Origin: Alphaproteobacteria bacterium
GTDB taxonomy: Bacteria; Pseudomonadota; Alphaproteobacteria; Micavibrionales; UBA2020
NCBI GenBank assembly: GCA_025934695.1
Contig: JAICWS010000002.1
Location: forward strand, 310,001-374,000
Length of the DNA: 64,000 bases
Reading direction: 5' to 3'
This document shows, piece by piece, positions 51,402 through 56,648 of this stretch (within the stretch, counting starts at the first letter, position 1; every line of letters starts with the position of its first letter). The notes beneath the pieces were generated by a model that was given only the letters and a program-made list of their open reading frames with translations, had not been told where the DNA came from and ran no database searches. A program made the translations under genes and the position numbers.

Positions 51402-52796
51402 CTAAAACTGCATTTTTCTTTTTTGCGCCGCGCTGTCGTTCTTCGGCACAACATCCTTCTGCATAAATGCCGTCACATCCGCCAGCGTCTCGAACTTCTG
51501 CGCAAAAACCTTCGCGTCACAATTGCCGGTCATCAGCACATCCATCAGCCGCGCCATGTCTTTCTGCGGCGCGTTGGCGTAGGTGGCGAGGATGCCGGCG
51601 ACATCCTTGGCGAAGTCCATCAACCGCCCCGTGCCGAAAGGGACATCCATGAACTTGCCGCCGTTATTGACCGCCGCGTCGCGGCTGGCGAGGAACAGCG
51701 GCGCATCCGCTTTAGGATTGCCGGTGAAGCCGTAGTCTTTCAGCAGTTCGTCGAAAGCTTTCGCCGCCGCGCTTTCGGGCACGAGTGTCGCGGACAGGAT
51801 GACAGCCATCGCCGGTTGGTCGATGCCGCTGTCCGCGCCCCGCACTTCCATGCGCTTGCCGATGGTTTTTCCCTGTTCGTCGCGCAGGTTGCAGACCTTC
51901 ACGTCGTTGTAGAGGAAGGTTTCCGCAAGGTCATAGTTGGATTGTGTATTCAGCCCGCGCTCGATCAGCTTTTCGAAGGTCAGCCGGTCATTCGCGGTCG
52001 ATGGAATAATCGTCCCGTCGAGGTCATAGGCGAAGTGCATCGGCGCTTTGAACACCGCCTCGATCTGGTTGCGGACGAATTCCTGCCCGTTCGACGCCTT
52101 CAGGAACGCCGGCGAAATCCCGCCCGCGTCGCCGTAGCCGAGGTAATATTTGCCGCGCGGCAGGTAATCGAGTTTTTTGTTCTCGTTCACGATGAAGCCG
52201 CTCGACGAGGCGGTAGCCACCATCAGCAGCGGCGTCAGCGCGTAGGCGCGGTAGACCATGCGGAACATTTCATCCGCGTCCTTGGGTGAAAAGCTGGTCT
52301 GCACGCTCGAGGTCAGCATCGGCAGGCGAAGCGTATCGGCGTCGAAAAGCTCTTGCATGGCCTTCAGGCTCACCTGCAACCGCTCGCGGCTGACCATGTT
52401 GCCAAGCGCTTCTTCTTTCGTCGTCGTCGGCACGATGGAAAAGGGCGAGCGCGTGAGACCGTCATCATTCGCGGCTTTTTCAAAAACACCGAGATCGGCT
52501 TTCATTTTCGCCAGCAGGCCGGTGATATCGTTCGCGGCGAAAGGCGGGCCCGCATATTCCAGCACGCCCGCCGGTTCCAGTTGCGCGTCGAAGCCTTGGC
52601 CTTTTAGTTTCGCCTGCAACGCCTGCATCTGCGGCGCGGGCGGAACGGCGGGCTTGGTTACGCCGGATTTGATCAGCGGCATCTCGACTTCGGCGCCCAT
52701 CTTGCCGGTATATTCGACGGGCGGAGGGGCATAGAGGGGCAGCGCCTCCTCGATTGAGGAAATTTTTCTGGTGTTGGTTTTCTGTACGTCGGTCAT
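51402..52796 (-). CDS. glutamate-cysteine-ligase-like protein, copy 1
   Basis: 464 residues. Motifs match the plant/proteobacterial class of GshA in order: KMGAEVEMPL (substrate/metal strand), AGVLEYAGPP, SSVQTSFSPKDADEMFRMVY with LTPLLMVATASSSGF, IEAVFKAPMHFAYDLDG, and GKRMEVRGADSGI. The fold joins the gamma-carboxyl of glutamate to an amine using ATP. Cysteine as partner is not guaranteed because the leader is histidine-rich. It is a paralogue of the 53267 protein. The upstream attenuator-like leader (52875-52951) is described separately. Confidence 0.8.
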   Translation of the reverse strand: MTDVQKTNTRKISSIEEALPLYAPPPVEYTGKMGAEVEMPLIKSGVTKPAVPPAPQMQALQAKLKGQGFDAQLEPAGVLEYAGPPFAANDITGLLAKMKADLGVFEKAANDDGLTRSPFSIVPTTTKEEALGNMVSRERLQVSLKAMQELFDADTLRLPMLTSSVQTSFSPKDADEMFRMVYRAYALTPLLMVATASSSGFIVNENKKLDYLPRGKYYLGYGDAGGISPAFLKASNGQEFVRNQIEAVFKAPMHFAYDLDGTIIPSTANDRLTFEKLIERGLNTQSNYDLAETFLYNDVKVCNLRDEQGKTIGKRMEVRGADSGIDQPAMAVILSATLVPESAAAKAFDELLKDYGFTGNPKADAPLFLASRDAAVNNGGKFMDVPFGTGRLMDFAKDVAGILATYANAPQKDMARLMDVLMTGNCDAKVFAQKFETLADVTAFMQKDVVPKNDSAAQKRKMQF

Positions 52797-52874: not shown

Positions 52875-52899
52875 AAAACAAAACTGGCTCAGCGCCAGT
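52875..52899 (-). terminator. attenuator terminator within the His-rich leader
   Basis: On the minus strand ACTGGC (52899-52894) pairs with GCCAGT (52888-52883) around GCTGA, which contains the leader stop codon. TTTGTTTTT follows directly. It ends transcription before the 51402 gene unless the stem is prevented. Confidence 0.6.
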
Positions 52900-52951
52900 G
52901 ATGATGGCGATGGGAATGCAGTGCGGAAATTTGTTGCATAAGGTTCGTCAT
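52889..52951 (-). CDS. histidine-rich leader peptide
   Basis: 20 residues: MTNLMQQISALHSHRHHHWR. Five of the last nine are His. The ATG lies 8 bases after the likely -10 box and has no Shine-Dalgarno, so the transcript may begin at or next to the AUG. Rhizobial trpL, [14 protein letters not shown], is likewise leaderless and ends with the sensed residues before Arg. The final codons form the terminator stem. Translation is inferred, not shown. Confidence 0.6.
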   Translation of the reverse strand: MTNLMQQISALHSHRHHHWR

Positions 52952-52958
52952 GGCGAAG

Positions 52959-52988
52959 AGTGTCGCTGATTTACGGTGATTCTGTCAA
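52959..52988 (-). promoter_or_regulatory. promoter of the His-rich leader and copy 1
   Basis: TTGACA (52988-52983), an 18-base spacer and GACACT (52964-52959), a weak -10. CTTCGCCATGACGAA follows and is nearly shared with the copy 2 leader. Confidence 0.5.
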
Positions 52989-53043: not shown

Positions 53044-53156
53044 TCCCCTCTCCCGCCGAAGGGCGGGAGAGGGTTAGGGAGAGGGATTGTCCTGCATGTT
53101 GAGTTCGGGACAATCCCTCTCCCCCTGCCCTCTCCCAACATGCGGTGGGAGAGGGA
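53044..53156. repeat. dispersed palindromic repeat, copy 2 (subtype B)
   Basis: Ends TCCCCTCTCCCGCC and GGTGGGAGAGGGA. The core arms are GAGAGGGATTGTCC and GGACAATCCCTCTC. It lies between the two ligase paralogues. Confidence 0.85.
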
Positions 53157-53166
53157 GCAAGGAGCG

Positions 53167-53277
53167 CTAGTCGATCACGTCGAACGAATGATTGTCTCTT
53201 TCGTCGATGCGGCGCTTCTCCTCCGTCGCAGAAGCGGGGGCGGTTTGCGGGATCTTCTCCAATTCCTCATGCAACAT
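53167..53277 (-). CDS. 36-residue protein coupled to copy 2
   Basis: The ATG at 53277 overlaps the stop of the 53267 gene by 11 bases, with AGG 6 bases upstream. The peptide runs MLHEELEKIPQTAPASATEE to DNHSFDVID; it is strongly charged with a helical start. No homologue was recognised. It would be translated by re-initiation after the ligase. Confidence 0.4.
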   Translation of the reverse strand: MLHEELEKIPQTAPASATEEKRRIDERDNHSFDVID

Positions 53278-54697
53278 GGCGCACCTGTGCCTTGGGCTGG
53301 TTGAGGTTGGCGGCGAGGGGTTTGCCTTTTTGCAGTTCGGCGGTGACGTCGCTCAGCGTCTTGTACTTCGCAGCATGCAGCTTCGCGTCGCAGTCGCCGG
53401 TGAGCAGCACATCGCAGAGCTTCGCGACCTCGGGCCCCACGGTCTTGTCGTTCGCATAGTGCGCCGACATAAGCCCCGCCACATCCGCTGCGAAATCGCG
53501 CAGGGACAAGGGCTGGCGCGTGACCGGGTCGATGCCGAACGGCACATCCATGAACTTGCCGCCATGCTCGACCGCGGCCTTGCGCGCGGATAGCAGGAGC
53601 GGCGCATCCGCTTTCGGATTGCCGGTGAAGCCGTAATCTTTCAGCAGGGCATCGAAAGCCTCCGCCGTCCTGCCGTCGGGGATCAGCGCGGCCGTCAGCA
53701 GCAGCACGCTCGCCGGCTGGTGCAGGCCGGAATCGGCCGGGCGCACTTCCACCCGCTTGCCGACGACCTGGCCTTCCGCGTCGCGCAGGTTGCAGATCTT
53801 CATGTCGTTGTAGATGAAGGATTCCGCCAGCTCATAGTTCGACTGGGTGTTCAGCCCCTTCGCCGCGAGATTACGGAAGGTGAAGCTCTCGCCTTTGCCC
53901 GGGCGCATTAATTTACCCTCGAGGTCATAAGCGAAGAACATCGGCGCGTCGAACACGGCGACGATATGGTTGCGCACCATGTCATCGGCGGTCGAGGATT
54001 TAAGGAAGCTCGCGGCGATGCCGCCCGACGGGCCGTAAGCCTCATAATATTTGCCGCGCGGCTGAACATCCTTGCGCTCGGGTTCGTTACAGGAAAAACC
54101 GGACGAGCTGTTCATCGCGGCGTAAAGCAGCGGCACCAGCGCATAGCCGCGCTTGAGCATGCGGAACATCTCGTCCTGGTCCGCGGGGCTGAACGAGGTC
54201 TGCACGCCGGTGGTGAGCAGCGGAATATTTTCCGTGCCGCGCGGGTAGGATTCGGCAAGGGTGGCCAGGCTCGCCTCGAGGCGCTCGCGCCCGACCTTGT
54301 TGGCCAGCGCCTCTTGCGTCGTCGTGGTGGGAAGGATGCAGAAGGGGGCGCGGGCATAGCCGCGCTCGGCGGCGGTGGCTTCGAAAACCGCCATATCTTT
54401 CTTCGACTGCGCCACCAATTTCGCGACATCCGATACCGCTACGGGCGGGCTGGCATATTCGAGCACGCCTGCCGCCTCCAGCTGCGCGTCGTGGCCTTTG
54501 CTTTTTAATTCCTGCGCCATCGCGGTCATTTCGGCGGCGACGGGAATGGCGGGCTTGGCGGCGCCCGGCTTGTACAGCGCCATTTCAACTTCGAGGCCGA
54601 CCTTGCCGCGATATTCGGCCGGCGTCGCGGTGTATAGGCCCCGCGCCTCTTCAGGTGAATTGATTAAACGGTTTTTGTTGCGGACGACGTCCGTCAT
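53267..54697 (-). CDS. glutamate-cysteine-ligase-like protein, copy 2
   Basis: 476 residues, aligning with copy 1 over its full length: KVGLEVEMALYKPG, AGVLEYASPP, GVQTSFSPADQDEMFRMLKR with LVPLLYAAMNSSSGF, VAVFDAPMFFAYDLEGK, GKRVEVRPADSGLHQP. Active-site regions are kept, so both copies are probably active. The partner amine is unknown; the upstream leader is Phe/Tyr-rich, unlike that of copy 1. Regulation by aromatic amino acid supply is inferred. Confidence 0.8.
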   Translation of the reverse strand: MTDVVRNKNRLINSPEEARGLYTATPAEYRGKVGLEVEMALYKPGAAKPAIPVAAEMTAMAQELKSKGHDAQLEAAGVLEYASPPVAVSDVAKLVAQSKKDMAVFEATAAERGYARAPFCILPTTTTQEALANKVGRERLEASLATLAESYPRGTENIPLLTTGVQTSFSPADQDEMFRMLKRGYALVPLLYAAMNSSSGFSCNEPERKDVQPRGKYYEAYGPSGGIAASFLKSSTADDMVRNHIVAVFDAPMFFAYDLEGKLMRPGKGESFTFRNLAAKGLNTQSNYELAESFIYNDMKICNLRDAEGQVVGKRVEVRPADSGLHQPASVLLLTAALIPDGRTAEAFDALLKDYGFTGNPKADAPLLLSARKAAVEHGGKFMDVPFGIDPVTRQPLSLRDFAADVAGLMSAHYANDKTVGPEVAKLCDVLLTGDCDAKLHAAKYKTLSDVTAELQKGKPLAANLNQPKAQVRHVA

Positions 54698-54768
54698 GAT
54701 GAATGCCCTCGTTCAGGGCCGCTCTTGTTCGAAGCGGTCTTTTAATTGGATTTCGGTGATGTGGCTGG

Positions 54769-54781
54769 CGGGTTAAACCCG
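54769..54781 (-). promoter_or_regulatory. second leader hairpin of copy 2
   Basis: Minus strand CGGG, loop TTTAA, CCCG (54781-54769), followed by ACATCACCG at 54762-54754. It corresponds to the element at 52856-52872. Confidence 0.45.
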
Positions 54782-54794
54782 TAAACGAGAATGT

Positions 54795-54816
54795 CTTTGG
54801 CTGTTAGCAGCCAAAG
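54795..54816 (-). promoter_or_regulatory. stem-loop containing the stop of the aromatic leader
   Basis: Perfect 9-base arms CTTTGGCTG and CAGCCAAAG (minus strand) around a CTAA loop that holds the leader stop codon. No U-tract follows, so it is not a simple terminator. Confidence 0.6.
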
Positions 54817-54857
54817 TAGGGATAAAAGAAGAAGTTGTTGTTCCACACATTCGTCAT
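54804..54857 (-). CDS. Phe/Tyr-rich leader peptide
   Basis: 17 residues: MTNVWNNNFFFYPYFGC. It begins MTN like the other leader and carries three Asn, then FFFYPYF. The ATG is 10 bases after the -10 box, so the 5' UTR would be only a few bases. The last codons form the stem at 54795-54816. It resembles pheA- or pheST-type leaders in composition. Translation is inferred. Confidence 0.6.
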   Translation of the reverse strand: MTNVWNNNFFFYPYFGC

Positions 54858-54866
54858 AATGGCGAA

Positions 54867-54894
54867 AGGGTAGCACAGGAGCCCCTGCTGTCAA
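54867..54894 (-). promoter_or_regulatory. promoter of the aromatic leader and copy 2
   Basis: TTGACA (54894-54889), a 16-base spacer ending TGTGC (extended -10) and TACCCT (54872-54867). An imperfect hairpin (GCTCCTGCTG and CAGCAGGGGC, 54922-54881) overlaps the -35. Confidence 0.5.
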
Positions 54895-56508: not shown

Positions 56509-56620
56509 TCCCTCTCCCGCGCTCGTCGCGGGGGAGGGTTAGGGAGGGGGATTGTCCCGCATGTCGAGTTCGGGACAATCCCACTCCCCAACCCTCTCCC
56601 AACATGCGTTGGGAGAGGGA
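56509..56620. repeat. dispersed palindromic repeat, copy 3 (subtype B)
   Basis: Ends TCCCTCTCCCGC and TTGGGAGAGGGA; core GGATTGTCCCGC to CGGGACAATCCC. It fills the space between glmM and nadK and touches the nadK start. Confidence 0.85.
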
Positions 56621-56648
56621 GTCAGCGCCTCTCTTCAACGAAACCGAG

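Follow-up and report, generated by a model that had tools for sequence, protein, structure and literature searches.

The pheL, hisL and trpL leaders of E. coli are short open reading frames that contain runs of codons for the sensed amino acid, and the trpL stop codon is positioned between the two arms of hairpin 1:2. Leader peptides specific for a single amino acid normally precede genes that make or charge that amino acid. The arrest peptides TnaC and SpeFL can do without a run of control codons. The trpL RNA of S. meliloti begins at the ATG of trpL, and the trpL attenuator, for which the antiterminator and terminator have been proven, controls trpE(G) in tryptophan biosynthesis (PMC7298713). 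Here, we describe a 100-base element upstream of a gene (gene B) in a 64,000-nucleotide stretch of DNA from an alphaproteobacterium of an uncultured family (the window). The element quite likely acts as a ribosome-mediated attenuator that senses amino acids, as trpL and hisL do. A target without a known function is unusual for an attenuator and counts as a point against this reading.

Gene B (53267..54697; minus strand, as are all genes, leaders, promoter elements and hairpins with coordinates below) encodes a 476-aa divergent GCS2/GCL-fold ligase-like protein. It is preceded by a leader ORF with Phe/Tyr control codons, MTNVWNNNFFFYPYFGC followed by a stop codon (54804..54857). Upstream of this ORF are a −35 element TTGACA (54889..54894) and a weakly matching −10 element TACCCT (54867..54872), separated by a 16-nt spacer, and the leader ATG is located 9 bases past the −10 element. 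A Phe/Tyr-rich leader behind TTGACA, in which a perfect 9-base stem carries the stop codon in its loop, had been reported in the first-pass annotation, and its exact translation, coordinates and stem were all confirmed. Among 646 small ATG ORFs of 10–40 codons in the window, the B leader alone has six or more Phe or Tyr residues in nine. Since its ATG follows only 9 bases after the −10 element, leaderless translation is predicted, and the B leader transcript is probably leaderless or nearly so, as in S. meliloti trpL. The −35 element (TTGACA or TTGACG, 16–18 nt from the −10) is kept in all B orthologues. Across the leaders of gene B and of its neighbouring paralogue, gene A, the best −10 element lies 6–12 bases from the ATG (19/19), and no Shine-Dalgarno sequence was seen before the leader ATG in any of the 19. 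A scan of 668 kb returned 106 candidate leaderless ORFs behind TTG-type promoters, and every one of the top nine by strength of residue run was an A or B leader. No Rfam family matched anywhere in the window above its gathering score, and the matches at the B leader were at chance level only. The common TTGACAGAATC string was rejected as a regulon signature, as exact copies of it occur at just three places in the genome, two of them before unrelated genes.

The B leader is kept in nine genomes, with its final nine codons conforming to [FY]F-x-Y-x-YFG-x-stop and differing by synonymous codon changes. The orthologous leaders are MTNKWNIAFFSYSYFG, MANNKNIAAPYFSYAYFGG, MKTVSQIAVTYFAYAYFGG (three genomes) and MTNAKHIAVFFF[GS]YAYFGA (three genomes). 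A comparison of orthologous leaders for missing aromatic codons had been proposed as a check, and the Phe/Tyr block proved to be present in all nine B orthologues with an intact gene. At the control positions, pairwise codon differences kept the F/Y class 30 times and changed it 5 times (the pairs are not independent), compared with 25% of random single-base changes that would retain this class. In the B copy of genome G014, possibly through an assembly error, the gene contains an in-frame TGA, and the leader has neither the aromatic motif nor a stop codon. These patterns bear on the possibility that the ORF is a product of chance in an ordinary 5′ UTR, conserved for the sake of its hairpins only. 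Although the ORF partly overlaps the hairpin at its stop codon, such an origin is highly improbable, given that the aromatic codons upstream of the hairpin change synonymously with their class retained, that the frame is kept in nine genomes, and that the G014 copy has lost the motif and the leader stop alongside its in-frame TGA. The A leaders, all of which are His-rich, and the clade D leaders, all of which have a WWR end (see below), argue in the same direction. The gene B family is found in the same bacterial family and in a few other genomes of the class (4/385 class genomes at E 1e-15).

The leader TAA is located in the loop of hairpin H1 (CTTTGGCTG-CTAA-CAGCCAAAG; 54795..54816), whose stem is a perfect 9 bp; among the stop-like triplets of the window, only 0.4% are enclosed in such a stem of 9 bp or more. 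All A and B leaders have an H1 at their stop codon, and among B orthologues H1 covaries, with CUG/CAG replaced by CGG/CCG and the outer C-G pair by U-A. A second hairpin without a U-tract, H2 (CGGGU-UUA-ACCCG; 54769..54781), varies in sequence but retains its structure in most B orthologues. A third small hairpin, not conserved in sequence, precedes the gene B ribosome binding site (54719..54737), and in the genome designated G000 a further small hairpin covers the presumed Shine-Dalgarno GAGGG of gene B (54705..54719). Palindromic intergenic repeats of the CCCTCTCCC..GGGAGAGGG type occur at 53045–53160 and 56515–56625 of the window.

Under attenuation, transcription would begin at, or shortly before, the leader ATG, and a ribosome translating the 17-codon ORF would trail RNA polymerase. 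With Phe/Tyr-tRNA in short supply, the ribosome would wait at the aromatic codons, while a good supply would allow it to reach the stop codon. Its position would determine whether H1 forms around the stop codon and, through H1, the expression of gene B. The signal would then be Phe/Tyr supply, with scarcity turning the gene on, and the output of H1 and H2 could be termination (with no strong U-tract), pausing, Rho or mRNA decay. In ribosome-masked folding, H1 was free with the A-site at the first control codons and blocked once the A-site had reached the final five codons or the stop codon. At the level of sequence, support for attenuation comes from the ORF with its conserved aromatic codons, the leaderless geometry, the covariation of H1 and the leaders of the paralogues.

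The blocking of H1 by a ribosome at the stop codon, as computed, would also be expected of a ligand-induced arrest peptide of the TnaC/SpeFL type, in which ribosomes stall on or close to the stop codon when free Phe/Tyr is in excess, H1 stays open and the gene is induced. The enzyme would then use up the amino acid in excess, a logic that would suit a consuming ligase, and the best-conserved residues of the various leaders (YxYFG-x, HHW-x, WWR and RM) directly precede the stop at a fixed spacing. However, the last codons double as the 5′ arm of H1, so RNA constraint accounts for part of this conservation, and several control codons in a row are the hallmark of tRNA sensing. Paralogue C (see below) has a SAM-II-like element that would moreover be switched on by scarcity, if it acts like known SAM-II elements (PMC9373788). 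We consider an arrest peptide unlikely and retain tRNA-sensing attenuation as the preferred reading.

An antiterminator/terminator pair of the classical type, part of the earlier proposal, was looked for and not found; in a by-eye search, a classical 2:3 antiterminator was present in single genomes only. Stems followed by four or more T in eight downstream of the stop were found in none of the 10 A and none of the 9 B leaders, and a U-rich tail after H1 is present in G000_A only. An intrinsic terminator for A and B was rejected, as none is conserved, and this lack of a conserved U-tract terminator is a point against the attenuator reading. Among clade D leaders, a terminator-like stem with a T-run lies downstream of the stop in 3/13, against 2% in shuffles. 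Neither alternative pairing of the 3′ arm of H1 nor sequestration of the Shine-Dalgarno sequence had a consistent effect over the 19 leaders of A and B, and Shine-Dalgarno accessibility did not change consistently. In the folding calculations, an upstream pairing competes with H1 as long as no ribosome occupies that place, and lowers H1, in some genomes (G004_B, G005_B, G006_B and G008_A) but not in others. In the stretch after H2, C exceeds G, which as a sign of Rho is suggestive only. Pairing over a long range between the two start-codon regions was rejected, since it rests on a chance palindrome and is not conserved.

Besides gene B, four further paralogues of GCS2 type in the family (A, C, D and E) have the same leader layout. 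Gene A (464 aa; 51402..52796), the neighbouring paralogue of gene B, is 57% identical to it. Its leader promoter has a −35 TTGACA (52983..52988), its leader ORF, MTNLMQQISALHSHRHHHWR followed by a stop codon, contains His control codons (52889..52951), and the stop codon is located in the loop of its own H1 (ACTGGC-GCTGA-GCCAGT; 52883..52899). That the paralogue shares the leader design with other codons, as the first-pass annotation had it, holds throughout: the A leaders are His-rich in 10/10 genomes and end in HHW-x before the stop, and the H1 stem has the same 6 bp in all 10. The tandem A and B leaders are probably of common origin. In clade D (G000:C3 near 927074; L126–L138), Trp leaders ending in WWR and a stop located in a hairpin were found in 13/13, one of them as WWRY. 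In clade E (G000:C6 near 222067; L139, L140, L141, L145 and L146), all five leaders have Arg-rich ends with CGA CGA, and a TTG-type promoter was located for 3/5. A downstream block of clade E, GGAGCCTTCCTCGTCTG..CGGGCA..ACTCCA, is near-identical in three genomes.

Clade C carries a uORF that ends in RM, with its stop at a hairpin, in 9/9. Most or all of the nine have a SAM-II-like element at the orthologous position, although its matches to SAM_alpha (19–25 bits, best 25.3) are below the Rfam gathering score of 36. Paralogue C is probably under a SAM/Met sensor, judging from these sequence features. The order at the C loci (L033 3787–3859 and eight more) is SAM-II-like element, uORF ending in RM and a stop, and C gene; the gene after C encodes a conserved short protein (MTTFKIHTPETAPE..). 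A candidate cysteine leader before C, MSACCRVTNS, was rejected, as its frame is lost in G006 and G009 and the block matches the SAM-II-like element. The parallel control by different amino acids first suggested for A and B would extend to putative Trp and Arg sensors, and probably SAM/Met sensors, on these further paralogues.

The occurrence of a conserved short peptide peculiar to each enzyme clade could also be explained if the peptide were itself the product, for example serving the adjacent GCL-fold enzyme as substrate or partner, or acting in trans, as has been reported for peTrpL (PMC7298713). This explanation has very little probability: the N-terminal halves of the leaders vary freely, the stop codon and hairpin co-evolve at the RNA level, and paralogue C combines a riboswitch-like element with a uORF in which only RM and the stop are conserved.

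Outside the family, on distant homologues from other parts of the order, Trp leaders were found on L025 (MNNTVIQICSFWWWRF) and on L022 (MNKLDQNTIKTTWQWLLK), which is 45% identical to L025, and a candidate Met-rich leader, MNSQNRRTSMMKMPAMMPMRRGRNRV, lies upstream of the distant homologue L024 (one or two genomes each). In the L024 leader, the stop is flanked by the arms of a 10-bp long-range inverted repeat. A second F/Y-rich small ORF, MSQRRFVAFFLFYNSNFFFYAF, is located between the Trp leader and the gene at L022. No such leaders were seen on canonical GshA genes, YbdK-like genes or f3 homologues, and no Phe/Tyr leader was seen at pheA.

The gene B protein has both a GCL fold and a GCS2 domain, the latter with a Pfam score of 25.2 bits, while no NCBIfam match and no solved structure related by sequence were found. 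Its AlphaFold2 model (33 sequences) has a pLDDT of 93, and the closest solved fold is that of plant glutamate-cysteine ligase 2gwc (Z 36.8 over 404 residues). Like 2gwc, gene B keeps the Glu and Arg motif positions, which are invariant across its family; unlike it, gene B shares only 17% identity with the plant enzyme and is accompanied by a separate canonical-looking GshA gene elsewhere in the same genome (GCS2 score of 201 bits). When L058, the GshA-like protein of that genome, was used as a BLASTP query, B proteins were absent among the 22 best matches. The description of gene B as a GshA-like paralogue in the first-pass annotation calls for one correction: gene B does encode a GCS2/GCL-fold protein, but its identity as canonical GshA was rejected on the lack of an NCBIfam match, the presence of the distinct GshA-like gene and the absence from the L058 best matches.

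HisG and HisD are missing in 17/18 genomes of the family, G000 included, so these bacteria probably need histidine, as far as gene content tells. The sole genome with both, G013, has no A, B or C genes. Prephenate dehydratase is present in 16/18 family genomes and Phe hydroxylase in 15/18, with a full-length TyrA in G015 only. By this gene content, Tyr is probably made from Phe, and the two would form one supply line, which fits a leader that mixes Phe and Tyr codons. Auxotrophy as the common theme of the leaders was rejected: it is true of His only, as Phe and Tyr can be made.

For each paralogue enzyme, the switch is probably the supply of a single amino acid, as its leader would predict, and this gives a hint at what the enzyme handles. 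The His-sensing member A is especially telling, as its lineage has no histidine biosynthesis. Our tentative proposal, which we hold with somewhat less than even confidence, is that, within this alphaproteobacterial order, a GCL-fold family has split into members for single amino acids (His, Phe/Tyr, Trp, Arg and probably Met), each with its own attenuator or riboswitch, and that the leader reveals the substrate. On the attenuator reading, the sensor would have been exchanged from paralogue to paralogue inside one ligase-fold family, two tandem genes included. The literature searched yielded no published description of attenuators specific for single amino acids on GCS2-type genes. The leaders would give a hint, of a kind seldom had from DNA alone, of the substrates used by a functionally uncharacterised family, and those of the paralogues form a natural series for the change of attenuator specificity after gene duplication.

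Like pheL, hisL and trpL of E. coli, the leaders described here contain runs of sensed codons, and H1 around the stop resembles the 1:2 hairpin of trpL; unlike them, they precede other target genes, and no 3:4 terminator or 2:3 antiterminator was found. The short leader with conserved residues near the stop is shared with TnaC (PMC8429421) and SpeFL. Paralogue C, in which a SAM-II-like element is paired with a downstream short ORF, is similar to the metA SAM-II leader of S. meliloti (PMC9373788), but C is a GCS2-type ligase and its SAM-II match is below the Rfam gathering score. Unlike S. meliloti trpL, the leaders here precede ligase-like genes of the GCL fold and, in A and B, lack a U-tract terminator. 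As in S. meliloti trpL, a leaderless short ORF is located at the transcription start, here by prediction, with control codons 2–4 codons before the stop, and several of the leaders share the N-terminal pattern M[TA]N..NI[AS] with peTrpL, a resemblance noted without a statistical test.
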